Origin: Ensifer adhaerens
GTDB lineage: Bacteria; Pseudomonadota; Alphaproteobacteria; Rhizobiales; Rhizobiaceae
DNA: 64,000 nt
Direction of reading: 5' to 3'
Assembly (NCBI GenBank): GCA_900215285.1
Contig: OCMG01000002.1
Span: 1-64,000, forward strand
Shown piece by piece: positions 32,813-49,568 of this stretch (position 1 is its first letter; every line of letters begins with the position of its first letter). The notes under the pieces are model-generated. The model had not been told where the DNA came from, did no database searches, and saw nothing but the letters and a program-made list of their open reading frames with translations. The position numbers were made by a program, and so were the translations under genes.

Positions 32813-33559
32813 ATGAAGTTCGCCGGCCAGGTCATCCTCATCGTCGGCGCGTCTTCGGGAATGGGGCGCGTTCTAGCCGCTCGGCTTGCCGCCGAAGGCG
32901 CAAAAGTCGTTGTAACGGCGCGACGGCAGACACGTTTCGAGACGCTCGCCAAGGAAATTCGCGACGCCGGCGGCGAATGTCTGCCACTCGCCGCGGATGC
33001 CGCCGACGAGGCTGCCGCTGCGGATGTCGTGTCCGCGACGGTCGCCCGCTATGGCCGGCTCGACATGATCTATCTGAATGCTGGCGGCGCACCCGCGCTT
33101 GACATGCGCACCATGACGGCCGCGGACGTCAACGCATACATGCGCTCCAATTATGACGTCGTGGTCAATTACCTGTTTCCGGCCCTTCAGCAGATGATGA
33201 AACAGGGCGGCGGCTTTGTCGGCCACACCAATTCGCTGGCTGGCTTCCTGGGCGTTCCGCTCCAGGGCCCATACTCGGCAGCCAAAAGCGCTGCCATGAT
33301 CCTGATCGACACCTGCCGCGTCGAATTCAAACGCTACGGCATCAAGTTCATCACCGTCTATCCCGGGTTCGTGGCCACCGAAAAAACGCAGGGCGATGGA
33401 ATGCCGGCGCCCCTGGAAATCTCGGAGGACAAGGCTGTCGATCATATCATGTATGCATTGAGCAGAGAAAAGTCCGATCATCTCTTTCCCTTTTCCATGC
33501 GGGCCCTGATCCGCCTGGCGCAGTTCCTGCCGAAAGCCGTCGTTCTGTGGATTCTGTAA
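32813..33559 (+). CDS. Short-chain dehydrogenase/reductase (classical SDR)
   Basis: A 248-residue protein. Cofactor motif VGASSGMG, the NAG motif LNAGGAP, catalytic Ser in HTNSLAG, and YSAAK at the active site are all visible, followed by the family segment ITVYPGFVATE. The basic residue pattern TARRQTR after beta2 hints at NADP preference. It follows the extended SDR gene and precedes the ABC operon. The substrate is unknown. Confidence 0.88.
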   Translation: MKFAGQVILIVGASSGMGRVLAARLAAEGAKVVVTARRQTRFETLAKEIRDAGGECLPLAADAADEAAAADVVSATVARYGRLDMIYLNAGGAPALDMRTMTAADVNAYMRSNYDVVVNYLFPALQQMMKQGGGFVGHTNSLAGFLGVPLQGPYSAAKSAAMILIDTCRVEFKRYGIKFITVYPGFVATEKTQGDGMPAPLEISEDKAVDHIMYALSREKSDHLFPFSMRALIRLAQFLPKAVVLWIL

Positions 33560-33646: not shown

Positions 33647-33656
33647 ATGTATACAT
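33647..33656. promoter_or_regulatory. GntR operator candidate ATGTATACAT (ABC operon)
   Basis: A perfect 10-base palindrome, ATGTATACAT, 115 bases before the binding-protein gene of the branched-chain-type ABC operon. The same sequence occurs at 39955, 41911 and, with one change, at 40885, all in promoter regions of the folate/demethylase genes, so it is probably the site of the GntR protein encoded at 40083-40814. Confidence 0.7.
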
Positions 33657-33770
33657 TGCTTCCCATTATGGAGTGATCGCTGGAGGAAAGTGCTTGGAGG
33701 AGCGTCCTTTCCGTTACGGCTCTGCCGTCGGCGATCAGGGTGTCGGAATGACAAACGGGAGGAAATGCGC

Positions 33771-34940
33771 ATGATCACGAGACGTCAACTCATTGCAAGC
33801 GCAGCGGCTGTTGCCATGCTGTCGGCTGCGGCACCGTCTTTTGCCGCGGACACGGTCAAGATCGGCCTGATCCTGCCGATGACAGGGCCATTCGCCTCGA
33901 CGGGGCGGCAGGTGGAAGCCGGCGTTCGTGCATACATGGCGCTGAACGGCGATACCGCCGGCGGCAAGAAGATCGAGATCGTCTTACGTGACGATGCGGG
34001 CACTGCCGACCAGACACGCCGGATCGCACAGGAACTTGTTGTGAACGACAAGGTCTCTATGCTGATGGGCTTTGGTCTCACGCCACTTGCGATGGCCGTC
34101 GCACCGGTTTTGAACCAGGCGAAGGTGCCGGCCATCATCACCTCGGCCACGACATCGGCCATCATGTCGAAGTCGGATTACTTCGTACGGACCTCCATGG
34201 CCGGTCCGCAGTCGGCTGTCCCGGTCGCCACCTGGGCCGTCAAGAACGGCCTGAAGCGCGTCGTGACGCTGGTCACGGATTACGGCCCGGGCCACGACAT
34301 CGAGAAGGGCTTCACCGATCAGTTCAAGAAAGACGGCGGCGAGATTGTCGAAGCGGTCAGGGTGCCGCTGCAGAACCCCGACTTCGCCCCCTTCCTCCAG
34401 CGCGTGCGCGACGCAAAGCCCGATGCCGTTTTCGTCTTCGTGCCGTCGGGCGTCGGTTCGCTCTTCATGAAGCAGTTCGTCGACCGGGGCCTCGCTGATG
34501 CCGGTATCAAGCTGATTGCCACCGGCGACGTCACCGACGACGACCTGCTCGGTTCCATCGGTGATCCGGCACTCGGCGTCATCACCGGCCATTTTTATTC
34601 GGCCGACCATGACAGCCCGGAAAACAAGGCTTTCGTGAAACAGGTGAAGGATGCCGCCAAGATGCGGCCGAACTTCATGGCCGTCGGCGGCTATGACGCT
34701 ATGCATCTCGCCTATGCCGCACTTGCCAAGACCAATGGCGACACGGACGGGACGAAGCTGATCAATGCCATGAAGGGCATGGAATGGATGAGCCCACGCG
34801 GCCCGATCTCCATCGATCCCGCCACCCGCGACATCGTGCAGGATATCTATATCCGCAAGGTCGAGAAGAAGGACGGCGAGCTCTACAATGTCGAGTTCGA
34901 TACCTTCAAGAAGATCCACGACCCGTTCGTCGCGAAGTAA
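33771..34940 (+). CDS. Branched-chain-type ABC transporter substrate-binding protein (LivJ family)
   Basis: A 389-residue periplasmic protein. The signal peptide is MITRRQLIASAAAVAMLSAA with cleavage near PSFAAD. The mature part starts VKIGLILPMTGPFASTGRQV, the usual LivJ-type opening. GGGAGGA precedes the ATG; an ATG two codons earlier is too close to it. It heads a five-gene transporter operon. Proteins of this family often bind aromatic acids (benzoate, p-coumarate type), and the shared operator with the O-demethylase gene suggests a methoxylated substrate. Confidence 0.9.
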   Translation: MITRRQLIASAAAVAMLSAAAPSFAADTVKIGLILPMTGPFASTGRQVEAGVRAYMALNGDTAGGKKIEIVLRDDAGTADQTRRIAQELVVNDKVSMLMGFGLTPLAMAVAPVLNQAKVPAIITSATTSAIMSKSDYFVRTSMAGPQSAVPVATWAVKNGLKRVVTLVTDYGPGHDIEKGFTDQFKKDGGEIVEAVRVPLQNPDFAPFLQRVRDAKPDAVFVFVPSGVGSLFMKQFVDRGLADAGIKLIATGDVTDDDLLGSIGDPALGVITGHFYSADHDSPENKAFVKQVKDAAKMRPNFMAVGGYDAMHLAYAALAKTNGDTDGTKLINAMKGMEWMSPRGPISIDPATRDIVQDIYIRKVEKKDGELYNVEFDTFKKIHDPFVAK

Positions 34941-35010
34941 CTTGAGGTCGCCGATCTTTCCAAAACCGGCGGCGGGGCGTGATCGCCCCGTCCCATAACC
35001 GGGAGAGACC

Positions 35011-35871
35011 ATGCTGACGATCCTGTTCGACGGCATCGCCTATGGAATGCTGCTTTTCATTCTGGCCTGCGGCTTGTCGATCACGCTCGGGCTGATGAAT
35101 TTTGTCAACCTCGCCCATGGCGCCTTCGCCATGGCGGGGGGCTATGTCACCGTGATCCTGATGAACCGCTACGGCATCTCCTTCTATTGGTGTCTGCCTG
35201 CGGCCTTTCTCGTCACTGCGTTGATCGGCGCAGCGCTGGAAGTCACGCTCTATCGCCGGCTCTATCGTGCATCGCATCTCGATCAGGTGCTCTTCTCCAT
35301 CGGCCTTGTCTTCATGGCCATTGCGGCCGCGGACTATTTCATGGGCGGACAGCAGCAGCTGATGAACCTTCCGGCGGAACTGCGCGGACGCTTCGAATTT
35401 TTCGGCATCGGCATCGGGCGCAGCCGATTGTTTATCATCGGGATCTGCGCCATTCTGGCGGTAGCGCTTCAGCTCGCGTTGACGCGCACCCGCTTCGGCA
35501 GCCAATTGCGTGCCGCCGTCGATGACGGGCGCGTCGCGCGCGGACTCGGCATCAATGTCTCGACCATCTTCGTTCTGACCTTTGCGCTCGGCTCCGGCCT
35601 TGCCGGTCTCGGCGGCGCCCTCGGCGCGGACATGCTCGGGCTGGATCCGAACTTCCCGCTCAAATTCCTCATCTATTTCATGATCGTCGTCACCGTCGGC
35701 GGCACGTCCTCGATCACGGGACCGTTTATCGCGGCACTTCTTCTCGGCATCGCGGATGTGGCCGGCAAATACTACCTTCCACAGGCCGGCGCCTTCATCA
35801 TCTATGCGGTGATGATCCTCGTACTGATCGTCCGCCCCAATGGCCTCTTCACGCGGGAGGGTGGACGATGA
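35011..35871 (+). CDS. Branched-chain-type ABC transporter permease (LivH family)
   Basis: A 286-residue membrane protein with eight or so hydrophobic helices. It opens with ILFDGIAYGMLLFILACGLS and has the family segment LGLMNFVNLAHGAFAMAGGY. It starts after CCGGGAGAGACC and overlaps the LivM-type gene by 4 bases. It forms half of the membrane channel. Confidence 0.92.
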   Translation: MLTILFDGIAYGMLLFILACGLSITLGLMNFVNLAHGAFAMAGGYVTVILMNRYGISFYWCLPAAFLVTALIGAALEVTLYRRLYRASHLDQVLFSIGLVFMAIAAADYFMGGQQQLMNLPAELRGRFEFFGIGIGRSRLFIIGICAILAVALQLALTRTRFGSQLRAAVDDGRVARGLGINVSTIFVLTFALGSGLAGLGGALGADMLGLDPNFPLKFLIYFMIVVTVGGTSSITGPFIAALLLGIADVAGKYYLPQAGAFIIYAVMILVLIVRPNGLFTREGGR

Positions 35872-36866
35872 GTGATCACACCACGGCGCTCGCACTGCTC
35901 AACACCAGGCGCCGCTGGCGCTTCTGGGAAATTGCCCTTTGGGTCGTCGCGGCTGCTGCAATCTTCGTGTTGCCCTCGCAGTTGCTGATCCTGACGGAAA
36001 TCGCCATCCTGGCACTCTTCGCCGTCTCGCTTGATCTCGTCCTCGGCTATGCGGGGATCGTCTCGCTGGGCCACACCGCCTTTTTCGGGCTGGGGGCCTA
36101 TGCGGCCGGCATTCTGGCGCGAAGCTACATCGCCGAACCCGTTACCGGCCTCGTCTTTGCCGGCATCGTCAGCGGTCTTTTCGGGTTGGCGACCAGCTTC
36201 CTCGTGCTGCGCGGTTCGGACCTCACGCGGTTGATGACAACCTTTGGCGTGGCGATGCTGCTCGCGGAGGTCGGCAATCAGGCAGCCTGGCTCACCGGCG
36301 GCGCAGACGGGCTCTCGGGTATTTCCATGAGCCCCATTCTGGGCCTTTTCGAGTTCGACCTCTGGGGTCGAACCGGTTATGTCTATTGCCTGGTCGTTCT
36401 GGTCGCTCTCACCTATATCGCGAGGCGCATCGTCAACTCACCCTTCGGTCTTTCACTGATGGCGATCAAGCGCAACCCACGCCGCGCCGCGATGCTCGGC
36501 ATATCGCCCAAGCGGCGCATCGTCGTGATCTATGCCGTGTCGGCCGCATATGCCGGCATGGCCGGCGCCCTGCTGGCGCAAACGACAAATTTCGTCTCGC
36601 CCGATGTGCTCGCCTTCCATCGCTCGGCTGACGTTCTGCTCGTCCTCGTCATCGGCGGGGCTGGCTACATCTATGGCGGCATTTTCGGTGCGATCATCTT
36701 CACGCTGCTGCGAGACTGGCTCTCGGTTGCCACCCCTCAATACTGGATGTTCTGGATTGGCCTGATCCTCGTCGCCATCGTCCTGATCGGGCGCGAACGA
36801 CTGACTGGATGGCCCACCCTCCTCGTCGCGCGGCTCAAGCTCAGAACGAAGGAGCGCACGCGATGA
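35868..36866 (+). CDS. Branched-chain-type ABC transporter permease (LivM family)
   Basis: A 332-residue membrane protein. The motif YAGIVSLGHTAFFGLGAYAA is the LivM hallmark, and the cytoplasmic loop SPFGLSLMAIKRNPRRAAMLG follows. It overlaps both neighbours by 4 bases (ATGA), so translation is coupled through the operon. Confidence 0.92.
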   Translation: MSDHTTALALLNTRRRWRFWEIALWVVAAAAIFVLPSQLLILTEIAILALFAVSLDLVLGYAGIVSLGHTAFFGLGAYAAGILARSYIAEPVTGLVFAGIVSGLFGLATSFLVLRGSDLTRLMTTFGVAMLLAEVGNQAAWLTGGADGLSGISMSPILGLFEFDLWGRTGYVYCLVVLVALTYIARRIVNSPFGLSLMAIKRNPRRAAMLGISPKRRIVVIYAVSAAYAGMAGALLAQTTNFVSPDVLAFHRSADVLLVLVIGGAGYIYGGIFGAIIFTLLRDWLSVATPQYWMFWIGLILVAIVLIGRERLTGWPTLLVARLKLRTKERTR

Positions 36867-37606
36867 TGGCGCTCGAGACCCGCAACCTCGTCAAGCGCTT
36901 CGGTGGCTTCACCGCCACGCATGACGTGTCGCTCTCCATTCGGAGGGGCGCGCGCCATGCGCTGATCGGCCCGAATGGCGCCGGCAAGACGACGCTGATC
37001 AATCTCTTCACCGGCGTCTTTGCGCCCACCAGCGGACAGATCCTGCTCGACGGCGAGGATATCACTACACTGCCGGCGCATGCCCGCGTGGCGCGCGGCC
37101 TGTCGCGAACGTTCCAGATCAACCAGCTCTTCGGCGACTTCACGCCGCTCGATTCCATGATGCTCGCCATCGGTGAACGCAAGGGCCATGGGCGCTACTT
37201 CTGGCGCTCCCTTGCTGCCGACCCCGATGTCATCAATGAGGCCGCTACCACGCTGGAGCAGTTTCATCTGGCTGACGTAATGTCGGAAGATACAAGATTG
37301 CTGCCATATGGCAAGCAAAGACTGTTGGAAATCGCCCTTGCGATCGCGTCCAGGCCCAAGGTTCTCCTGCTGGACGAACCCGCTGCCGGCGTCCCGGAGG
37401 AGGAGCGCGAGGAGGTTCTTTCCATCGTTCGGGCCCTTCCCGAAGACGTGACCGTGGTTCTGATCGAGCATGACATGGACCTCGTCTTCTCCTTCGCTGA
37501 CCGCATTTCAGTTCTCGCCGCCGGCGCGCTCATTGCGGAAGGCACAGTCGAGGAGATCGCGCGCGATCCGCAGGTCAAGGCGATTTATCTTGGAGAAGAT
37601 GCCTGA
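36863..37606 (+). CDS. Branched-chain-type ABC transporter ATP-binding protein (LivG family)
   Basis: A 247-residue ATPase with Walker A GPNGAGKTTL and Walker B VLLLDEPAAGVPE. The LivG-specific segment RGLSRTFQINQLF contains the Q-loop. The signature motif is degenerate: LPYGKQRLLEIALAI in place of LSYGQQR-type sequences. The frame is open upstream, but the ATG at 36863 overlapping the LivM stop is the natural start. Confidence 0.91.
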   Translation: MMALETRNLVKRFGGFTATHDVSLSIRRGARHALIGPNGAGKTTLINLFTGVFAPTSGQILLDGEDITTLPAHARVARGLSRTFQINQLFGDFTPLDSMMLAIGERKGHGRYFWRSLAADPDVINEAATTLEQFHLADVMSEDTRLLPYGKQRLLEIALAIASRPKVLLLDEPAAGVPEEEREEVLSIVRALPEDVTVVLIEHDMDLVFSFADRISVLAAGALIAEGTVEEIARDPQVKAIYLGEDA

Positions 37607-38307
37607 TGACGGCCCTCCTTCACATAGAGAAACTGGTGGCAGGCTATGGCGAGGCGAGGGTGCTCTCCCATGTCGATCTCACCCTCAAAGCCGGCCGCTC
37701 GCTTGCGCTTCTCGGGCGCAACGGTGCCGGCAAGACGACGCTGGTCGACACGATCGCAGGCGTGACGACACATCACGCCGGCGCGATTCGATTTGACGGT
37801 CGCGACATCAGCCGCCTTCCTCCAGAGCGGCGCGCGCCTCTCGGCATTGGCTGGGTGCCGCAGGAACGCAATATCTTCCCCTCGCTGACGGTGGAGGAAA
37901 ACCTGACCGCCACCGCCCGGCCAGGCGCCTGGTCGCTGGAACGCGCTTACCAGATGTTCCCCCGCCTGAAGGAACGCCGGCGCAACATGGGCAATCAGCT
38001 TTCGGGCGGCGAACAGCAGATGCTTGCCGTCGCCCGCGCCTTGTTGCTGAACCCGAAACTGCTCTTGCTCGACGAACCGCTGGAAGGCCTCGCTCCGATC
38101 ATCGTGGATGAATTGCTGGCAGCGCTCCGCCGCATCGTCACGGGAGAGGGCATGTCCGCGATCATCATCGAGCAGAAGGCCCGCAAGATCCTGCCACTGA
38201 CCGACGAGGCCGTGGTTCTGGATCGCGGGGCCGTGAGCTATCGGGGAACATCTCAGGCGCTGCTGAACGATCCGGTGCGGCTGGATTCGTTGCTGAGCGT
38301 CGCGTGA
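37606..38307 (+). CDS. Branched-chain-type ABC transporter ATP-binding protein (LivF family)
   Basis: A 233-residue ATPase with Walker A GRNGAGKTTL, signature LSGGEQQMLAVARAL and Walker B LLLLDEPLEGLAP. The ATG overlaps the LivG stop by one base (TGATG). It is the last gene of the operon and is followed by a hairpin terminator. Confidence 0.92.
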   Translation: MTALLHIEKLVAGYGEARVLSHVDLTLKAGRSLALLGRNGAGKTTLVDTIAGVTTHHAGAIRFDGRDISRLPPERRAPLGIGWVPQERNIFPSLTVEENLTATARPGAWSLERAYQMFPRLKERRRNMGNQLSGGEQQMLAVARALLLNPKLLLLDEPLEGLAPIIVDELLAALRRIVTGEGMSAIIIEQKARKILPLTDEAVVLDRGAVSYRGTSQALLNDPVRLDSLLSVA

Positions 38308-38415
38308 GCGGCGTCTCTTGGAGCCGACGCCGGCTGATGCGGACCGCGTCAACCTCGGCGCAAGGTCGGGGAGAGTAGAGGGTCTACGCCAAAGACAGCC
38401 TGACCCAACAATCAA

Positions 38416-38450
38416 AAGACACCGAAAGCGGGTCGCGCCTTCGGTGTCTT
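38416..38450. terminator. Strong hairpin between convergent livF-like and ligM-like genes
   Basis: AAGACACCGAA (38416-38426) pairs perfectly with TTCGGTGTCTT (38440-38450), an 11-base stem with a 13-base loop. The minus strand continues with CTTTTGAT after the stem and the plus strand with TTTGG, so it can serve both converging transcripts. Confidence 0.7.
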
Positions 38451-38512
38451 TGGCTTCCAGTCCATGCAAGCCGGACGGGCGCAGCGCTCTCGCACCGCGC
38501 CAGCACTCCTGA

Positions 38513-39925
38513 TCAGCGCTTCGTACGCCAGCTTTCGGCATAATTCTCGCGGGCCTCGCGCGCGTAAGGCGTAGGCGAAACGCGGACGCGGATCTTGGCC
38601 TGCTTGTGGCGCTCGGTCGAGGTCTTGCCCGAACCGCCGTCGGGTTCACCCCAAACCAGGGTCAGCACATCGCCTTCCTTAATATCCTGGTCGACGATAC
38701 CCAGCGAAAGCAGGCAGCGCTCGTTATAGGAATAGCCGTTGAACATCGACATCCCAACCTGCTTGCCGCTCTGGTCGAGGATCAGGTCCGCGCTCGTCGA
38801 AGCGTAGTTCGGCTGCGGGAAGTCGATCCACTTGTAATGATCTTCGCCCGGCTTGAAGGCGGATGCGATGACGTCCACGACGTCTTCGGCATTCCACTCG
38901 AAGGTCACCTTCTTGCGGTGCTTCTGCTCCTTCATCTTCAGCAGGGCCTGCTTGCCGATGAAGTCGTCCTTCTTCCAGCCGATGTAGAAGTCGTAGCCCA
39001 GCTCGAACGGGTTGACGTAATAGTCTTCGATATTGTTCGAGACATAGCTGCCGCCGATGGCACCAGTCGCCTCATAGGAATCCGCGCCGAGCCATTCTCG
39101 ATAGGCCTGCAGCATACCGTCGCCGGTATAGATGCCCGGCAGAGGAGACGGAATCCAGCCGGATTCGAGCGTGTTGGTCGAATAGGCGCGGCTTCCGCAG
39201 CGCACGAGATCGACATTGGCTTCCTTGGCAGCTTCGAGAATGCAGCTCAGGATATAGTTCTTGTCGTCATAAGGCCCCCAGATTTCGAGGCCTGGCGCGC
39301 CGGACATGCCGTGGCGCAGCGCCTGCACCTTCTTGGAGCCGACATTGATCTGGTCGACATGGAAGAACTTGATCTCCGGGATCGGACCGCGGTTCAGCTT
39401 TTCGAAGATCTTGTAAGCCTCCGGACCCTGAATCTGGTAGCGGTAATGCGTGCGGAACACGCGCTCGCCTTCAGGGCGCGACGGCGAACGCGGGTCGTGC
39501 TTGATGCGCACGTTCCACTTGCCATAGGCAGCGCAGAACATCAGCCAGTTCGACGTCGGCGCGCGACCCACGAGAATGAACTTGTCCTGGCGCTCGCGGA
39601 AGATGATGTGGTCGCCGATGACATGGCCGTTCGGCGTGACCGGAACGAAATGCTTGGCGCGGTTGAGATCGAAATTCGAGAAGGAATTGATGCCGTGATA
39701 GGCAAGAAACGCTTCGGCATCCGGGCCTTCGACGATCAGTTCGTCCATGTGATGCGACTGGTCGAACAAGACTGCGGAGTGGCGCCAGGCGGCCTGCTCA
39801 TCGCGCCAGTTCGCGAATTCCGGCGCGACGACCGGGTATACATACATCCCGATCTTCGAATTGCGCAAACGCCCGACAATGTCGGGGTTTTCTTTCATGA
39901 TGTCGGACAGACTGGAAACAGCCAT
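38513..39925 (-). CDS. ligM: Tetrahydrofolate-dependent aryl O-demethylase, LigM/DesA family (GcvT fold)
   Basis: A 470-residue protein of the aminomethyltransferase (GcvT) fold. Its length and residues such as IGMYVYPVVAPEFANWRDEQ, AVLFDQSHHM, HGMSGAPGLEIWGPY, NTLESGWIPSPLPGIYTGD and SNNIEDYYVNPFELGY closely match what I know of Sphingobium LigM, which moves the methyl group of vanillate or 3-O-methylgallate to tetrahydrofolate. The ATG at 39925 follows GGGAGGA. An ATGTATACAT operator lies 30 bases upstream. MetF-like and formyl-THF-deformylase genes nearby would process the methyl-THF. The substrate could be vanillate, syringate or another methyl ether. Confidence 0.83.
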   Translation of the reverse strand: MAVSSLSDIMKENPDIVGRLRNSKIGMYVYPVVAPEFANWRDEQAAWRHSAVLFDQSHHMDELIVEGPDAEAFLAYHGINSFSNFDLNRAKHFVPVTPNGHVIGDHIIFRERQDKFILVGRAPTSNWLMFCAAYGKWNVRIKHDPRSPSRPEGERVFRTHYRYQIQGPEAYKIFEKLNRGPIPEIKFFHVDQINVGSKKVQALRHGMSGAPGLEIWGPYDDKNYILSCILEAAKEANVDLVRCGSRAYSTNTLESGWIPSPLPGIYTGDGMLQAYREWLGADSYEATGAIGGSYVSNNIEDYYVNPFELGYDFYIGWKKDDFIGKQALLKMKEQKHRKKVTFEWNAEDVVDVIASAFKPGEDHYKWIDFPQPNYASTSADLILDQSGKQVGMSMFNGYSYNERCLLSLGIVDQDIKEGDVLTLVWGEPDGGSGKTSTERHKQAKIRVRVSPTPYAREARENYAESWRTKR

Positions 39926-39954
39926 CGTGGTTCCTCCCATTGGCTAAACGATCT

Positions 39955-39964
39955 ATGTATACAT
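39955..39964. promoter_or_regulatory. GntR operator candidate ATGTATACAT (ligM-like gene)
   Basis: An exact copy of the palindrome ATGTATACAT, 30 bases upstream of the O-demethylase start, where a bound repressor would block the promoter or early elongation. Confidence 0.72.
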
Positions 39965-40082
39965 TCATGCCGATTGACGCGCAGAATGCAAGCCTCTTTT
40001 TCAGAGAGATTGGCGCGAGGAGATGGCAAATGGAAGACGGATTCTTCTCGGCGAGGAACTCGGACTCAAAGTTTTTCAGGCT

Positions 40083-40814
40083 TTAGCGGTGAATCAGCGC
40101 AAGGCCGGGAATCTTGCCGAGAAGATCCGGGTCCTTGTTGAAAATGTATTCAATATTGTGCCGGGCTGTGCGCGCATGCTCGCGCGCCACGAATTCCGCC
40201 CGCGCGCCCTCTCTGCCGATAATCGCATTCAGGATTGCCTTGTGCTGCTCCTGTGCCGAGCGCAGGGAGCGGCGAAAGGCAGCGATTTCCAGCCGGTTCG
40301 GCAGGAAGGCCGAGGGCGAGGCAAAGGGTAGCGCCGAGGCACGCTCGACTTCCCGGCGGATCATTTCACTGCCGCAAAGTCCTGCAAGCTCGCGGTGAAA
40401 ATCCTCGTTGAGATCAGAATAGGCATCGAAATCGACCTCATCTCCCGCCCCAAAACAGGCATCGATCTTTTCGACGATATCCTGCAGCCGCAAAAGCCCT
40501 TCCGGTGACGCGCCGCGTTCGGCAGCAAGGCGTGCGGCCGTCCCTTCCATCACACCGCGCAACTCGATGGAATCGATCACATCCTCATAACCGAAGCGGC
40601 GCACGACGAAGCCGCCATTCGGCAAGCGATCGAGGAGCCCCTCCTCCGCCAGCCGCGACAGCGCCTCACGCACCGGCGTGCGGGAAATCTCCAGCGTTTC
40701 AGCCAGCGACACCTCGAAAAGCCGCATCCCGCCCGGCAATTCGCCGCTGACGATCTTTTCACGCAATTCGATCACGGCCCTGCGGCCATGGGTGGCGGCT
40801 TCGCTGACTTTCAT
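40083..40814 (-). CDS. GntR-family regulator, FadR subfamily (FCD domain)
   Basis: A 243-residue regulator. The N-terminal winged HTH is visible (LREKIVSGELPGGMRLFEVSL, then LEISRTPVREALSRLAEEGL). The C-terminal all-helical FCD ligand domain includes EDFHRELAGLCGSE and the HKAILNAIIGREGARAEF helix with metal-binding His positions. It is flanked by the deformylase and O-demethylase genes. A one-mismatch ATGTATACAT element lies 71 bases upstream, so autoregulation is likely. The ligand is probably the methylated substrate or its demethylated product. Confidence 0.9.
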   Translation of the reverse strand: MKVSEAATHGRRAVIELREKIVSGELPGGMRLFEVSLAETLEISRTPVREALSRLAEEGLLDRLPNGGFVVRRFGYEDVIDSIELRGVMEGTAARLAAERGASPEGLLRLQDIVEKIDACFGAGDEVDFDAYSDLNEDFHRELAGLCGSEMIRREVERASALPFASPSAFLPNRLEIAAFRRSLRSAQEQHKAILNAIIGREGARAEFVAREHARTARHNIEYIFNKDPDLLGKIPGLALIHR

Positions 40815-40884
40815 GATTCAATCCCCCATTCGCACCATCGCTATAGCACTCCGAGAGGCGGCTGCGAAGCGCCTCGGGGTCCGC

Positions 40885-40894
40885 CTGTATACAT
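40885..40894. promoter_or_regulatory. GntR operator candidate CTGTATACAT (gntR promoter)
   Basis: Nine of ten bases match ATGTATACAT. It lies between the deformylase stop and the gntR start, the expected place for an autoregulatory site. Confidence 0.62.
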
Positions 40895-40915
40895 TGGCGA
40901 CGAGGGCTCCCGCGA

Positions 40916-41764
40916 TTATTTGGCGAAGACGACAGTCTTGTTCTTGTTGAGCAGAACGCGATCCTCCAGATGCCAGGTCACGGCTCGCGCCAGGACCCGC
41001 CGCTCGATATCGCGCCCCTTGCCGACCAGTTCCTCAGGCGTGTCGGCGTGGCTCACCGCCTCGACGTCCTGGCAGATGATCGGCCCCTCATCCAGATCGC
41101 CGGTGACATAATGAGCGGTCGCGCCGATCATCTTCACCCCGCGCGCATGCGCCTGGTGATAGGGCTTGGCCCCCTTGAAACCGGGCAGAAAGGAATGGTG
41201 GATGTTGATACAGCGACCGGAAAGAAAGGCAGAGAGCTCGTCGGAAAGCACCTGCATGTAACGCGCCAGAACAACAAGCTCAGCCCCGCTTTCTTCGACG
41301 ATCCGCTGAACTTCGGCTTCCTGCGCCGCCTTGGTCTCCCTGGTAATCGGCAGATGATGATAGGGAATGCCCTCCATCAGGGTGAGGTTCAGCGCCTCGC
41401 GCGGATGATTGCCGATGATCCCGACCACCTCCATGTTCAGTTCGCCGATCCGCATCCGGTAGAGCAGATCCCCGAGGCAATGATCGAAGCGCGACACCAT
41501 CAGCAGCACCTTGCGCCGTATACCCGCAATTCGCAGCGTCAGGTCAAGACCGAAACGCTCCACCTCTTGGCTGATGCCCGCACGGAAGGCAGTTTCCGGT
41601 TCCACCATCGAGAAGGCCACCCGCATGAAGAACATGCCGGTTTCAGGATCGTCGAACTGATGCGCCTCGAAGATGTCGCCGCCATGCGTGGCGATCCGCA
41701 CCGCGACGGCGGCCACGATGCCGCTGCGATTGGCGCAGCGCAGCGTCAGGATGTAGTCGGTCAT
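40916..41764 (-). CDS. purU: Formyltetrahydrofolate deformylase
   Basis: A 282-residue enzyme with an N-terminal ACT domain (TLRCANRSGIVAAVAVRIA) and a C-terminal formyltransferase-fold hydrolase. The catalytic Asn-His-Asp set is visible in INIHHSFLPGFKGAKPYHQA and GATAHYVTGDLDEGPII. It hydrolyses 10-formyl-THF to formate and THF, regenerating the folate acceptor needed by the O-demethylase. The ATG at 41764 has a GGAGGAGAGA purine tract. It diverges from the MetF-like gene across a spacer holding an ATGTATACAT site. Confidence 0.93.
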   Translation of the reverse strand: MTDYILTLRCANRSGIVAAVAVRIATHGGDIFEAHQFDDPETGMFFMRVAFSMVEPETAFRAGISQEVERFGLDLTLRIAGIRRKVLLMVSRFDHCLGDLLYRMRIGELNMEVVGIIGNHPREALNLTLMEGIPYHHLPITRETKAAQEAEVQRIVEESGAELVVLARYMQVLSDELSAFLSGRCINIHHSFLPGFKGAKPYHQAHARGVKMIGATAHYVTGDLDEGPIICQDVEAVSHADTPEELVGKGRDIERRVLARAVTWHLEDRVLLNKNKTVVFAK

Positions 41765-41910
41765 GTTTCTCTCCTCCTGAGGAGCGCTCCCACACCCCTC
41801 GCTTTCTCTCTCTCGCAGCGACTGCGCGTACACATTTCAAAATGCCTTATCGCCAAAAATCAGCTCATAAGGCCATTTTCATCGGCATATTGATTGTTTA
41901 TGCGATATCG

Positions 41911-41920
41911 ATGTATACAT
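41911..41920. promoter_or_regulatory. GntR operator candidate ATGTATACAT (purU/metF divergent promoter)
   Basis: An exact palindrome copy in the 182-base spacer between purU and the MetF-like gene, 26 bases before the latter's start. A weaker related element, GCGTACACAT, lies near 41825-41834. One bound dimer could control both directions. Confidence 0.72.
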
Positions 41921-41946: not shown

Positions 41947-42879
41947 ATGGCTTTTTTGAATTTCGGCAGCCGCACCGACACCAAGGCATCAGCCCCCGAC
42001 CTCGATGCAGAGGCCGCAGGATTTCTCGATAACTGGTCGATCGAGGTCATGCCGCGCACAGCGGCGAAAGTGGAAAACTTCCGTGCGCTACTGCCTGCTG
42101 GAACGCGTGTCTATGTGGCCCATATCGCCGGAACGCCGTTTGAGGATATGCTGGCGACTGCGCAGCGACTGACGAAGGATGGCTTTCCCGTCATGCCGCA
42201 TATCCCGGCCCGCATCATTCCCGATATTGCAACTCTGGAAACCTGGATTCGACGCTATCGCGAAGAGGCCGGCGTGACGCAGGCGCTGTTGCTCGGGGGC
42301 GGACCAACAAAGCCGGAAGGCGCGCTTCACAGCGCCGTCCAGCTCATAGAAACCGGCCTGTTCGACCGCTATGGATACAAGCGCCTGCATGTCGCCGGCC
42401 ATCCGGAGGGCAATCGCGACATTGATGCGGATGGCACGACTGCGCAAGTCGATGCCAGCCTGATGTGGAAGCAGGACTTTTCCTCGCGGACGGATGTCGA
42501 GATGGCCATCGTCACACAATTCGCCTTCGACGCCGCTGCCGTGACAAGCTGGGCGGAACGCATCGCCGATCTGGGCGTCCGTTTGCCCATCCATGTGGGC
42601 ATTGCCGGTCCTGCCAAGCTGCAAACGCTGATCCAGTTCGCCCTCTCCTGCGGGGTCGGCCCGTCGCTGAAGGTCTTGCAGAAACGCGCCATGGACGTGA
42701 CCCGCCTGCTCGCGCCTTACGAGCCGACCGACGTCGTCAGCGGCCTGGCAGCCTACAAGTTAAAAAACCCTGATAGCCTTATCTCGCGGGTTCATGTGTT
42801 TCCGCTGGGTGGTATCCGGACGGCCGCCGACTGGATGAACCGGCAGGTTCCGGCGAAGCCTCGGGCTGCGATGGCATGA
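41947..42879 (+). CDS. metF: Methylenetetrahydrofolate reductase family protein (MetF-like)
   Basis: A 310-residue flavin-dependent TIM-barrel protein of the MetF family. Features include WSIEVMPRTAAKVENF, ALLLGGGPTKPEG, TQFAFDAAAVTSWAERI and PIHVGIAGPAKLQTL. It starts after AGGAGGAGCAAG. In vanillate-type O-demethylation the reductase runs in reverse, oxidising 5-methyl-THF to methylene-THF. The sequence is divergent from housekeeping MetF, which fits a dedicated catabolic copy. No FolD gene is present in the window to complete the oxidation. Confidence 0.85.
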   Translation: MAFLNFGSRTDTKASAPDLDAEAAGFLDNWSIEVMPRTAAKVENFRALLPAGTRVYVAHIAGTPFEDMLATAQRLTKDGFPVMPHIPARIIPDIATLETWIRRYREEAGVTQALLLGGGPTKPEGALHSAVQLIETGLFDRYGYKRLHVAGHPEGNRDIDADGTTAQVDASLMWKQDFSSRTDVEMAIVTQFAFDAAAVTSWAERIADLGVRLPIHVGIAGPAKLQTLIQFALSCGVGPSLKVLQKRAMDVTRLLAPYEPTDVVSGLAAYKLKNPDSLISRVHVFPLGGIRTAADWMNRQVPAKPRAAMA

Positions 42880-42891
42880 CGCGCTAGCAGT

Positions 42892-43950
42892 TCATCCACC
42901 CGCAAACACCCTTCCGTCAAACAGCTTGCGGGCCGTGCGGATCGATCCGGCACCCTTGACGCCGCCCTCTGCATCGAGGTCGAGAAAGACCTCCATCGAT
43001 CCCGTTGGGTGCTCGATGAAATAGACCCTGCCCTCAGGCTGCACGGCCAGTGTAGCGGCCGGTCCCGTCTTCAGCCGCGTCGCCGTCGCCACGGTGATTG
43101 CGGCAAAGACCCCAATAGTGGCGTGGACGCGATGCGGGATGAAACATCGAGTTGAAATCACGCCGCCTGAACTTGGCGGTGAAACGAGCACCATTTTTGG
43201 CACGGACGCTGTCGTGACATCACCAAGCCCCATCAGCGGACCCGCCCGAAGCCGGATGGCCTCAACACGCGCCTTCAATAGGGCATTCTCTTCAAGTTCC
43301 TCCCGGCTCTCTTTCCCCGTCACACCGAGATCGGAGGCGCGCAGGATGACACAGGGCATGCCGTTGTCGATCAAAGTTGTCTCAATACCGTCAATTATGT
43401 CCACCAGATTGCCAGTTGGCAGCAGCGCGCCGCACATCGAGCCCGCGATATTGGCGAATATCAAAGGCACGGCGGCATGTCGTCCGGGAACGCCCGCAAT
43501 CTCAGCCTCTCCGCGATAGGTGACCCGGCCGCCTGGGGTCGCGACGCGCGCCACGGCGACCTCGCCCGTATTCACCATGTGGATGCGCACTTCCGTCTCG
43601 GCGTCCATCGCCGCCACCAGCCCGCGTTCAATGGCCGCCGGCCCGACGCCCGCGAGAATGTTGCCGCAGCCCTGCGCATCACTGACAAGCGCCTGATCGA
43701 CAAAGACTTGCAGGAAGAGATAGTCGACATCGGCGTCAGGGCGGGCCGATTTTGAAAGGACCGCCACCTTGGAGGTCAGCGGGTCAGCCCCGCCGATACC
43801 GTCAATTTGGCGTGGATCGGGCGAGCCCATGACCGAGAGCAGGAGCCGGTCGCGTTGAGCCGGGTCGGCAGGCAGGTCTTCCGCCAGAAAATAGGCCCCT
43901 TTCGACGTGCCGCCGCGCATCCAGAGACAGGGGATGCCGTTCTCAAACAT
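42892..43950 (-). CDS. galD: 4-Oxalomesaconate tautomerase (GalD/PrpF family)
   Basis: A 352-residue PrpF-fold isomerase. It opens [17 protein letters not shown] and has [18 protein letters not shown], both typical of the GalD/LigU branch. The enzyme converts keto and enol forms of 4-oxalomesaconate in the gallate and protocatechuate 4,5-cleavage routes. Its start overlaps the aldolase gene by 8 bases; the four genes galB-like, dioxygenase, galC-like and galD-like form one overlapping operon. Confidence 0.87.
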
Positions 43951-44614
43951 ATTTCAGCCCCTTGGCCGCGAGGACGCCCCGCATGTCATACATGTCCAGG
44001 CCGAGTTCGCCGGCGGCGAGACGCTTTCGCTTCATTTCCTCGTTGGCCAGCCGCTTTTCGGCTGCTTTCAACACCAACTCGGCTTCCGCACAGCGGACGA
44101 CGCAGACGCCATCATCATCAGCGACGACCACATCGCCTGCCTCGATCAGCGCACCGGCGCAGACGATCGGCACATTGACCGAGCCCAGCGTTTCCTTGAC
44201 CGTGCCCTGCGCCGAAATCGCCTTCGACCACACCGGGAAGCCCATGGCTGTCAGATCACGGATATCCCGCACGCCGGCATCGATGATCAGCCCCCGGCAG
44301 CCGCGCGCCTTGGCCGAGGTCGCCAGCAAATCACCGAAATAGCCGTTATCGCAAGGCGAAGTTGGGGCGAGCACCAGAAGATCGCCGTCCCGTACCTGTT
44401 CGATCGCCACATGCAGCATCCAGTTATCGCCGGGTGGCGCGGAAATGGTGATCGCCGAGCCTGCAACGGACGCCCCAGCATAGATCGGCCGCATATAGCT
44501 CGCCAGCATGCCCTTGCGCCCCTGCGCCTCATGCACAGTCGCTACGCCCGCCCGGGCGAGCCGGTCGATAACGGCGGGATCGGCGCGCGGAATGTTCTGC
44601 ACCACGATGCCCAT
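43943..44614 (-). CDS. galC: 4-Carboxy-4-hydroxy-2-oxoadipate aldolase/oxaloacetate decarboxylase
   Basis: A 223-residue RraA-fold aldolase. [20 protein letters not shown] at the N terminus and [14 protein letters not shown] with the metal-site Asp are family landmarks shared with LigK, ProA and GalC. It cleaves 4-carboxy-4-hydroxy-2-oxoadipate to pyruvate and oxaloacetate. It starts two bases after the dioxygenase stop. Annotation as an aldolase, not an RraA regulator, rests on the operon. Confidence 0.87.
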
Positions 44615-44616
44615 GC

Positions 44617-45582
44617 TCAGTGATCCTTCTTCACGGCAGGCGGTGTGCCATGGGTGTGGAAGGTCTCGATCGTCTTCAGACCCCAGGCCTGACCCTTCTT
44701 GCGCTCGGTCTCCGTCCAGCAGACCGGCTTCCAGTCGGGCGCGAGGATGAGCCGCGCGCCGGAATTGGCAAGCTCCACTCGGTTGCCGGCCGGCTCCCAG
44801 ACATAGAGGAAGAAAGTACCCTGGATCGCATGCTTGTGCGGCCCGGTTTCGATGTGCACGCCGTTCTCGAGGAAGATGTCGGCCGCGCGCAGGATGTCCT
44901 CGCGCGTGTCGGTCGCATAGGTCACGTGATGCAGCCGACCGGATGCGCCGCCATGCTCTTCCGTGCAGGCGAGATCATAGGTCTTGTTGTTGATGGTGAA
45001 CCAGCAGCCACCGATGCGGCCATTGTCGAGCTGGATATATTCCGTCACCCGCGAGCCCAGGCAGGTGATCATGAAATCACGGAACTTGCTGACGTCTTCA
45101 GCCAGAAGATTGAGATGATCGAAGCGACGCGGATTGGCGCCGCGCCCGTGATAGCGCTGGGCGATGTTTTTCAGCGCCGGACGTTCGCCATCGGGTGCCG
45201 CGTAGCGCACCGTGTCCCAGTATATTTCGAAGACATGGCCGAACGGGTCTTCGAACCGGAAGGCGCGGCCGTGGCCCTTGTCGCCATCGACCCAGCCGAC
45301 CACCTTGTAGTCGCTCGCCTCAATGGCCTTCACCCGTCGCTCCAGCGCTTCCGGCGAGGAGGCGCGGTAGGCGATATGGCCGACGCCGGTCGTGTGATGG
45401 CGGGTGAGTTTCAGCGTATGGAACTCATAGTCGTCATAAGCCCGCAGATATGCGGAATTCTCGTCCTGACCGGACACGGTCAGGCCGTAGACATTGACGA
45501 AGAAGGCCAGGCTTTCCTCGAATTTGTCGGTATACATCTCGACATGGGCGAGATGGGCGATATCGAAGCAGGGTTCGGTCAT
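44617..45582 (-). CDS. Type I extradiol dioxygenase, VOC superfamily, in gallate-type operon
   Basis: A 321-residue two-module extradiol dioxygenase of the catechol-2,3-dioxygenase/BphC fold. The N-terminal module starts [20 protein letters not shown]. The catalytic module has [12 protein letters not shown] (His), [11 protein letters not shown] (His) and NRVELANSG (Glu), a complete 2-His-1-carboxylate set. The ATG overlaps the galB-like gene (ATGA). Gallate and protocatechuate 4,5-dioxygenases (GalA, DesB, LigAB) belong to a different fold, the LigB superfamily, and none is encoded here. This enzyme therefore probably supplies the ring cleavage for the pathway, perhaps on gallate, methylgallate or protocatechuate. 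Confidence 0.85.
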
Positions 45583-46313
45583 AGCGTATCCACCGTGCGC
45601 GGGAAAACGGATTGAAAGCCCTCGGCATACTGGGCGGCGCGTCCGCCCGACTGTCCGCCGGAATTGCGCTGGAAATGATTGGCGCGGTTCTGCGCCACGC
45701 GGGTGTAGAAGTCCCAGAGATGCTCCTGGCCTTCCATGCATTCGATCGCCGCGCGCTTCTTGTCCCAGACCGTCGTGATATCGAGGAAGACATCAGGCTT
45801 CCAGCCCATCTGCTCTGTCTGGTGTGGCTCGAAGAGATAGAGCTGCGGCGCGCCGAGTACCTTTTCGCCCGGCTTGTGACCCCAGGCCTGCGCAATCATC
45901 CGCGCTTCCAGAGCAACCTGGGTCGCATACATGTGGTCGGTGTTATAGGGGTCATATTGAGAATGGCTCATCATGAAGGCAGGCTGCACGGAGCGGATGA
46001 CATCGACAAGCCGAAACTTGTCATCATCGGTCAACCGCAGCGGATAGTCGCCGAGATCGAAGGAGATCAGATCATGGACGCCGAGTGCCTCGGCAGCCCT
46101 CTCCGCCTCCGCGCGGCGCGCCGCCTTGACGCGCTCCAATGTCATGTCCTTCTGCTTCCAGAGCTTGGCGGATTCACCGCGCTCGCCAAAGGAGAGGCAG
46201 ACAACCGTCACCTCGTAGCCTTGGCTTGCGTGAAGAGCGATTGCCCCGCCGCAACGCCAGACGAAATCGGCGGCATGCGCGCTGATCACCAGCGCGGTCT
46301 TCTTCTCTCCCAT
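45579..46313 (-). CDS. galB: 4-Oxalomesaconate hydratase, PIG-L family (GalB-like)
   Basis: A 244-residue LmbE/PIG-L-fold protein. The zinc-site motif reads ISAHAADFVWRCGGAIALH and CLSFGERGESAKLW follows, as in Pseudomonas GalB. The second ligand region HSQYDPYNTDHMYA supplies further His/Asp. Most PIG-L proteins are deacetylases, but the GalB branch hydrates 4-oxalomesaconate. Its position with galC- and galD-like genes supports that role. It is the first gene of the operon and diverges from the DUF1932 dehydrogenase gene. Confidence 0.87.
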   Translation of the reverse strand: MGEKKTALVISAHAADFVWRCGGAIALHASQGYEVTVVCLSFGERGESAKLWKQKDMTLERVKAARRAEAERAAEALGVHDLISFDLGDYPLRLTDDDKFRLVDVIRSVQPAFMMSHSQYDPYNTDHMYATQVALEARMIAQAWGHKPGEKVLGAPQLYLFEPHQTEQMGWKPDVFLDITTVWDKKRAAIECMEGQEHLWDFYTRVAQNRANHFQRNSGGQSGGRAAQYAEGFQSVFPRTVDTL

Positions 46314-48866: not shown

Positions 48867-49568
48867 GTGGAAGAGACTGAAAAGATCACCCACCGAAGAG
48901 GCTACGGCGTGTCGACGGTCTACGAGACACTGCGCAACGAGATCATCGAGTTGAAACTCGCGCCCGGTAGCCCGATCGATGAACAGCAGTTGTCGGATCG
49001 GTTTTCGCTTTCGAGGACACCCATCCGGGAAGCCCTGGTGCGGCTGTCAGCCGACGGGTTGATCACCACATTGACCAATCGGGCCACAATCGTTTCGAAT
49101 ATCGACTTTCTCGGCCTTTCCGAGTTTTTCGACGCCCTAACCCTGATGTATCGCGTGACGACGCGTTTGGGCGCGATGAACCGGACGACCGAGGACATTG
49201 CCAGGATTCGTGAATTGCAGAAGGATTTCGCGTTGGCTGTCGCGGAACGCGATGTTCTCGGCATGATTTCCACAAACCGCGACTTTCATCTCGCGATCGC
49301 CTCTGCAGGCAGGAATCGCTATTATGTCGACCTTTTCACCCGTCTCCTCGATGAAGGACGGCGGATGCTGAGGCTCTACTATTCCTCCTTCAACGACGTC
49401 CTTCCCCGCCAGTATGTGAGTGAACACGAGGACATAATCCAGGCTGTCATCAACCGCGACGCTGACCTGGCGGACCGCTTGGCGGCCGCGCATGCCGATC
49501 AGATCGTTCGGCAGATCCGCTCCTACATCGCGACGGATGGACGGCAGAACGTCGACTTCAAAATCTGA
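48867..49568 (+). CDS. GntR-family regulator, FadR subfamily
   Basis: A 233-residue protein from a GTG start with AAGGGA upstream. The winged HTH spans VYETLRNEIIELKLAPGSP and LSDRFSLSRTPIREALVRLS. The C-terminal FCD domain includes RDFHLAIASAGRNRYYVDLF and YVSEHEDIIQAVINRDADLA, with the usual His positions. It lies just before a DapA-like gene on the same strand, with TTGTCGAC-type elements in front of both genes, so it probably controls both. Confidence 0.89.
   Translation: MEETEKITHRRGYGVSTVYETLRNEIIELKLAPGSPIDEQQLSDRFSLSRTPIREALVRLSADGLITTLTNRATIVSNIDFLGLSEFFDALTLMYRVTTRLGAMNRTTEDIARIRELQKDFALAVAERDVLGMISTNRDFHLAIASAGRNRYYVDLFTRLLDEGRRMLRLYYSSFNDVLPRQYVSEHEDIIQAVINRDADLADRLAAAHADQIVRQIRSYIATDGRQNVDFKI

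Follow-up and report, generated by a model that had tools for sequence, protein, structure and literature searches.

A palindromic decamer as the probable operator of a GntR-type repressor of aromatic acid uptake, O-demethylation and folate recycling in Ensifer adhaerens

Results

Genes and palindromes of the locus

We analyzed a stretch of 64,000 nucleotides of Ensifer adhaerens (contig OCMG01000002.1, positions 1 to 64,000, referred to as the window), in which one palindrome recurs before the genes of an ATP-binding cassette (ABC) importer, a tetrahydrofolate (THF)-dependent O-demethylase, two folate enzymes and a GntR-type regulator. Exact copies of ATGTATACAT had been noted at 33647, 39955 and 41911, together with a 9/10 match at 40885, and the window scan agrees with all four places, the last one reading CTGTATACAT; the gene calls also hold for the proposal that these sites precede the ABC operon, the LigM-like gene, the purU/metF divergent pair and gntR itself.

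The first predicted operator (33647..33656) lies 33 bp ahead of the GTG at 33690 which opens the importer operon, a forward-strand set of five genes of the Liv/Urt type (33690..38307) encoding a binding protein (33690-34940), two permeases (35011-35871 and 35868-36866) and two ATPases (36809-37606 and 37606-38307). The second (39955..39964) is found 29 bp ahead of the ATG, probably at 39925, of the reverse-strand gene ligM (38513..39940), whose product is assigned as a THF-dependent vanillate/3-O-methylgallate O-demethylase by NCBIfam NF047885 with 651 bits (cut-off 580) and by 567 bits to 5x1i. The operator-like CTGTATACAT (40885..40894) lies 70 bp ahead of the ATG of the reverse-strand gntR (40083..40814), which Pfam GntR and FCD domains, a match to 6z74 and a tree identify as an FCD-GntR repressor gene. 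The fourth site (41911..41920) is located between purU, a formyltetrahydrofolate deformylase gene on the reverse strand (40916..41833, the ATG probably at 41764 with the start judged by eye; TIGR00655 318 bits, cut-off 286), and a forward-strand metF-like gene (41947..42879), whose ATG it precedes by 26 bp. The metF-like protein was without a match in the Pfam scan, and its closest solved relative was 7xg9 with 161 bits in comparison to 23 bits for the classical MetF 1v93. We take 7xg9 to be the methylenetetrahydrofolate reductase of SYK-6.

Rarity and clustering of the palindrome

The results showed that the window holds five matches to ATGTATACAT at no more than one mismatch, whereas 100 shuffles averaged 0.25 matches and never exceeded 2; the fifth of them, ATGTATGCAT at 33449, falls within a short-chain dehydrogenase reading frame (32813-33559) and has a broken GTATAC core. 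The whole genome (5,190,151 bases in 6 contigs) has three exact copies of ATGTATACAT, all in the window and thus none within unrelated genes, while one-mismatch forms were found at 25 places in comparison to 13 for the reversed control. The core TGTATACA occurs five times genome-wide, in comparison to 10 times for its reversed control, and four of the five copies are the sites named above; base composition alone predicts roughly 1.2 copies of the decamer and 30 of the octamer, and the probability that at least four of five octamers fall inside the 8.3 kb stretch is about 3e-11. Chance as the origin of the palindromes was rejected on the basis of this genome-wide rarity, the clustering and the control-palindrome counts. 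The fifth TGTATACA, at 823607 of contig C3 (loci L015 and L176), has different flanks, reading CTTGTATACAAG, and adjoins another FCD-GntR gene and a gene for a DctP-type TRAP binding protein.

Two further near-sites which keep GTATAC were noted elsewhere in the genome, AGGTATACAT on contig C2, outside every frame of at least 80 residues, and ATGTATACGT on contig C4, inside such frames; the approximately 4 kb examined around them showed no homologue of any of the 20 reference proteins from the window.

Kinship of the regulator with Atu1419

The best PDB match of the window GntR was 6z74 (363 bits, full length), which is taken as Atu1419 of Agrobacterium fabrum, with structures described in PMC7797058. 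The two proteins share 72.4% identity over 239 residues, and all seven DNA-contact positions published for Atu1419 (H9, R31, E34, S44, R45, T46 and R49) are identical, as are eight of the nine residues of the citrate/effector pocket (R86, Y133, N137, H141, S169, K175, R183, H214 and N221), K175 being replaced by R. H192, presumably a zinc ligand, is identical as well. A quick tree computed from 68 rows, including 32 of the 82 LigM-linked loci, places both proteins in an 11-row group with support 86 within a starred 17-row group. We conclude from these sequence comparisons that the window GntR is an orthologue of Atu1419.

According to the portions of PMC7797058 used here, the Atu1419 operator is 5'-ATGTATACAT-3', as demonstrated by electrophoretic mobility shift assays and two DNA co-crystals, and changing G3 and C8 of the palindrome abolishes binding. 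The same source reports that Atu1419 is a tetramer which represses atu1418 (metF-like), atu1419 itself and atu1420 (THF-dependent demethylase), that deletion of atu1419 raised the reporters 3.67-, 3.92- and 1.58-fold, respectively, and that N5,N10-methylene-THF, the proposed inducer, releases the DNA while THF and methyl-THF do not. In A. fabrum C58, two exact palindromes separated by 190 bp are found in atu1418-1419 and a third precedes atu1420, all within a ferulate cluster (PMC7797058).

Both operator and regulator are therefore already known from A. fabrum, as are the targets ligM, metF and the regulator gene itself, and because the window GntR is an Atu1419 orthologue with a matching operator and matching contact residues, the core finding is a further instance of a described regulon, with an orthologous repressor, an identical decamer and the same three targets. 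Unlike the A. fabrum system, the window has the ABC importer and purU as additional predicted targets, and genes of the 4-oxalomesaconate route adjoin.

Co-occurrence of site and regulator in related genomes

To follow the site among relatives, 120 loci around gntR homologues were collected, consisting of the best 80 of at least 475 confirmed relatives and 40 of 76 match rows in genomes of the order, from which four duplicates were dropped to leave 116 gntR loci. Genes were placed by tblastn with the window proteins, which replaced longest-open-frame calling on account of its spurious frames, and a site was regarded as upstream when within 350 bp. The core TGTATACA is present in 112 of these orthologous loci with 284 copies in total, whereas 63 other palindromes of equal G+C count reached a median of 7 and at most 89 copies, and both arms of the palindrome are kept, outer bases included. 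The next commonest palindromes of like composition, ATGATCAT (89) and ATCATGAT (84), are themselves far over the median.

With the window added to the 116 loci, the site was found upstream of LigM in 83 of 87 cases (82 of 83 for LigM at 50% identity or more, window excluded), GntR in 73 of 117, MetF in 40 of 66, the importer binding protein in 27 of 37, the extradiol dioxygenase in 15 of 44 and PurU in 7 of 22. It was upstream of none of the permease genes (0/36 and 0/39), ATPase genes (0/45 and 0/47) or genes for LigJ-like proteins (0/42), LigK (0/43) and the tautomerase (0/44).

LigM copies away from gntR had TGTATACA upstream in 3 of 3 cases, one of them about 20 kb from gntR on the same contig (L166) and two on other contigs than gntR (L167 and L168). 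Six additional genomes with LigM at 54% identity or more came from sampling 385 genomes of the class. One of these (G512) has a 48% identical gntR beside LigM, with two core copies upstream of that gntR; the LigM loci of G580, G638, G718, G673 and G750, taken with 1.5 kb on each side, hold TGTATACA in 0 of 5, and all five genomes are without a close gntR, the first three having none and the last two just 34% identical ones. Among 397 genomes of the order, LigM at 58% identity or more was found in 13 and the regulator in all 13 of these (E up to 1e-30), as well as in 70 of the 397 overall; the regulator was missing from one more genome, the fourteenth, whose LigM-like protein is 44% identical. 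The site thus follows the regulator and not LigM as such, being present at LigM genes distant from gntR and missing from LigM loci of genomes that have no close gntR. That the site belongs to every LigM-like gene was likewise rejected, as five of seven loci with 40-48% identical paralogues (L171-L175) are without TGTATACA.

Two side observations were made on these loci. A LigM-like paralogue cluster (46% identical) in L169 and L170 carries a purU/metF divergent pair with TTGTATACAT 54 bp ahead of purU, and in three Agrobacterium vitis loci (L083, L090 and L095) the gntR-ligM pair follows two same-strand open frames of about 1030 residues.

The distribution bears on two other readings of the palindrome. 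The first is that it is a promoter element, with TATACA as the -10 hexamer, rather than an operator: TATACA does lie inside the palindrome, TTGATT stands 18 bp ahead of it at metF, and Atu1419 sites overlap -10 boxes as far as PMC7797058 was used here. A sigma-70 promoter scan placed none over the operators, although its rule (T ending the second hexamer) could not match TATACA. A plain -10 element was rejected by the conservation of both arms, outer bases too, the absence of the site from the five LigM loci without a close gntR and the count of just five copies in the genome, and we consider this reading highly improbable. The second is that the four sites are bound by another FCD-GntR protein, either the second one in the window (GntR2, 48867-49568) or the one on contig C3, both of which are of the right family, the latter gene also having an adjoining TGTATACA site. 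However, homologues of GntR2 number 4 across the window and the 116 loci, in comparison to the core in 112 of 116 loci, so that GntR2 is an unlikely binder; the C3 protein is 30% identical and the flanks of its site differ, and Atu1419 itself binds this decamer (PMC7797058), which together make this second reading very unlikely. The assignment of the protein at 40083-40814 as the natural binder was thus supported by Atu1419 orthology, published binding of the identical decamer and the co-occurrence of site and regulator.

The same core before vanA

Regulators 39-56% identical to the window GntR adjoin an oxygenase gene which is unrelated to ligM. The oxygenases of L057 and L147 have Pfam VanA_C and Rieske domains, and the reductases of both loci have Fer2; the remaining vanA genes were recognized by their tblastn matches to this pair, at 53-89% identity. 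The only NCBIfam match of four of these oxygenase-locus proteins was to a sterol monooxygenase model and fell below the threshold, and vanillate is their putative substrate as judged by family and context. The core TGTATACA lies at the vanA start or shortly before it in 19 of the 22 loci with vanA, being absent in L152, L164 and the fragment L065.

Six of these loci (L057-L060, L062 and L161) have a second TGTATACA inside the vanA frame, about 300 bp from the upstream copy. Its codons, TGT GTA TAC ATG, are invariant in the six loci while neighbouring third positions vary, and among the 15 other vanA genes which cover that place, GTA occurs there in none and TGT in one (L150). In the six genes, which are related, 6 of 10 GTA codons and 6 of 9 TGT codons fall at the intragenic site. 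This looks like selection for an operator within the coding sequence, and DNA looping by a tetramer would be compatible with it. With other rows left out of the tree, at least two changes are required to account for the LigM-linked and VanAB-linked labels, and L061, which is LigM-linked, falls among the VanAB-linked regulators.

The importer and the neighbouring ring-cleavage genes

The importer had been described as an uptake system of unknown substrate; the substrate is not wholly unknown, as the binding protein (33690-34940) shares 59.9% identity over 362 residues with 4ey3/4eyg/4eyk. The ligands of these structures are presumably hydroxybenzoate-type acids including hydroxybenzoate, vanillate and protocatechuate. 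Independently of this identity, five of the 22 vanA loci (L062, L147, L148, L155 and L156) carry an ABC set with subunits 58-73% identical to those of the window, which argues that the importer goes with vanillate demethylation whichever enzyme acts. The substrate is probably a vanillate-like acid; urea was dropped, as all five subunits are under the NCBIfam Urt cut-offs. An importer of probably similar function is CouPSTU of Rhodopseudomonas palustris, an ABC system for lignin-derived aromatic acids, yet CouP, according to the parts of PMC3610893 used here, does not respond to 4-hydroxybenzoate and prefers phenylpropenoids, whereas the window binding protein is nearer to 4ey3/4eyg/4eyk. Among the open-access literature matches listed, judged by titles and abstract openings, no importer or purU under an Atu1419-type operator was seen.

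The adjoining region of the window (42892-46313) encodes a 4-oxalomesaconate tautomerase, a LigK-type aldolase, a PIG-L family protein and an extradiol dioxygenase. GalB is, we assume, a PIG-L enzyme. The dioxygenase is of the catechol-2,3-dioxygenase (VOC) kind, below the model cut-off, standing in place of a LigB-type enzyme; gallate or 3-O-methylgallate may be its substrate. A LigB-type gene was noted elsewhere in the genome, on contig C3. Because these ring-cleavage genes of the 4-oxalomesaconate route adjoin the regulon, the coupling is to the catabolism of methoxylated benzoates.

Discussion

Our analysis makes it probable that the GntR-FCD repressor encoded at 40083-40814 uses the four palindromes as its operators, and that its release by methylene-THF would raise uptake, demethylation and one-carbon (C1) recycling together. 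When there is little O-demethylation, the repressor would sit on operators near the starts of the ABC operon, ligM, metF/purU and gntR and block transcription, acting alike at all four sites. The importer would take in vanillate or a related methoxybenzoate, LigM would transfer its methyl group to THF, and the metF-like enzyme would oxidise methyl-THF to methylene-THF, which would free the repressor so that uptake, demethylation and C1 recycling rise jointly, while purU would drain formyl-THF to formate and regenerate THF. The original prediction tied uptake to the O-demethylase and to dedicated folate recycling; the sites at those promoters support this, while the ABC operon and purU, which we infer as targets together with the importer substrate, remain predictions.

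Several points weigh against this proposal. PurU has the site in just the 7 of 22 cases given above, and a site of their own is absent for MetF in 26 of 66 cases and for GntR in 44 of 117, in part because those genes then sit inside operons. The site at the gntR promoter matches at 9 of 10 bases, and the locus counts are not independent, as possession of gntR was the selection criterion and many of the loci are closely related. Pocket position 175 is R in the window GntR but K in Atu1419. In A. fabrum, the atu1420 promoter rose just 1.58-fold in the atu1419 deletion and ferulate induction persisted without atu1418, as described in the portions of PMC7797058 used here. The effector, methylene-THF, is in our assessment the weakest part of the mechanism.

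An alternative effector for the same regulator and operators is an aromatic acid such as vanillate, syringate or 3-O-methylgallate. VanR2 of Pseudomonas sp. NGC7 is likewise a GntR-type repressor of syringate/vanillate O-demethylation, and as far as PMC12314914 was drawn on, it is induced by syringate and 3-O-methylgallate; moreover, pocket position 175 is variable in the alignment (three loci left out), being K or R in 71 of 82 LigM-linked regulators and Q in 18 of 21 VanAB-linked ones, with the pocket otherwise largely common. However, the VanR2 operator is different, reading GGGATCCC, and that system employs an oxygenase rather than a methyltransferase (PMC12314914), while the 72%-identical Atu1419 is released by methylene-THF and not by THF or methyl-THF (PMC7797058). 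We thus regard an aromatic effector as unlikely and prefer methylene-THF. The LigM/DesA system of Sphingobium SYK-6 has LigM and MetF which appear to be of the same kind as those of the window, yet its regulators, in the parts of PMC12314914 used here, are of the MarR type (DesR) and the IclR type (DesX) with vanillate and syringate as effectors.

Since position 175 differs, a common effector of the LigM- and VanAB-linked regulators does not follow. It is nevertheless possible, as a tentative extension, that TGTATACA together with a repressor of the VanR group makes up a transferable unit controlling aromatic O-demethylation, with a common core operator and identical DNA-contact residues at vanA in some lineages and at ligM in others, which outlives the swap of chemistry between the two, which may read C1 load and not the aromatic compound, which here extends to uptake, and whose intragenic vanA operator could be used by a looping tetramer. 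C1 load may be what is read because both chemistries can raise methylene-THF, in the case of VanAB via released formaldehyde and THF.

The analysis adds new members to the regulon, a footprint that runs through the clade and disappears wherever the regulator is missing, a probable substrate class for the importer, and an operator core that vanA has in common. A regulon known from one species is thereby extended to a clade of Hyphomicrobiales, and an exact operator is offered through which uptake and demethylation of vanillate-type compounds and C1 recycling would be controlled, together with an indication of the likely substrate of the ABC importer. The palindrome regulon probably switches on the uptake of lignin-derived aromatic acids along with the removal and recycling of their methyl groups, and if C1 sensing is true, a folate intermediate would gate substrate uptake, which would matter for the engineering of lignin-converting bacteria.

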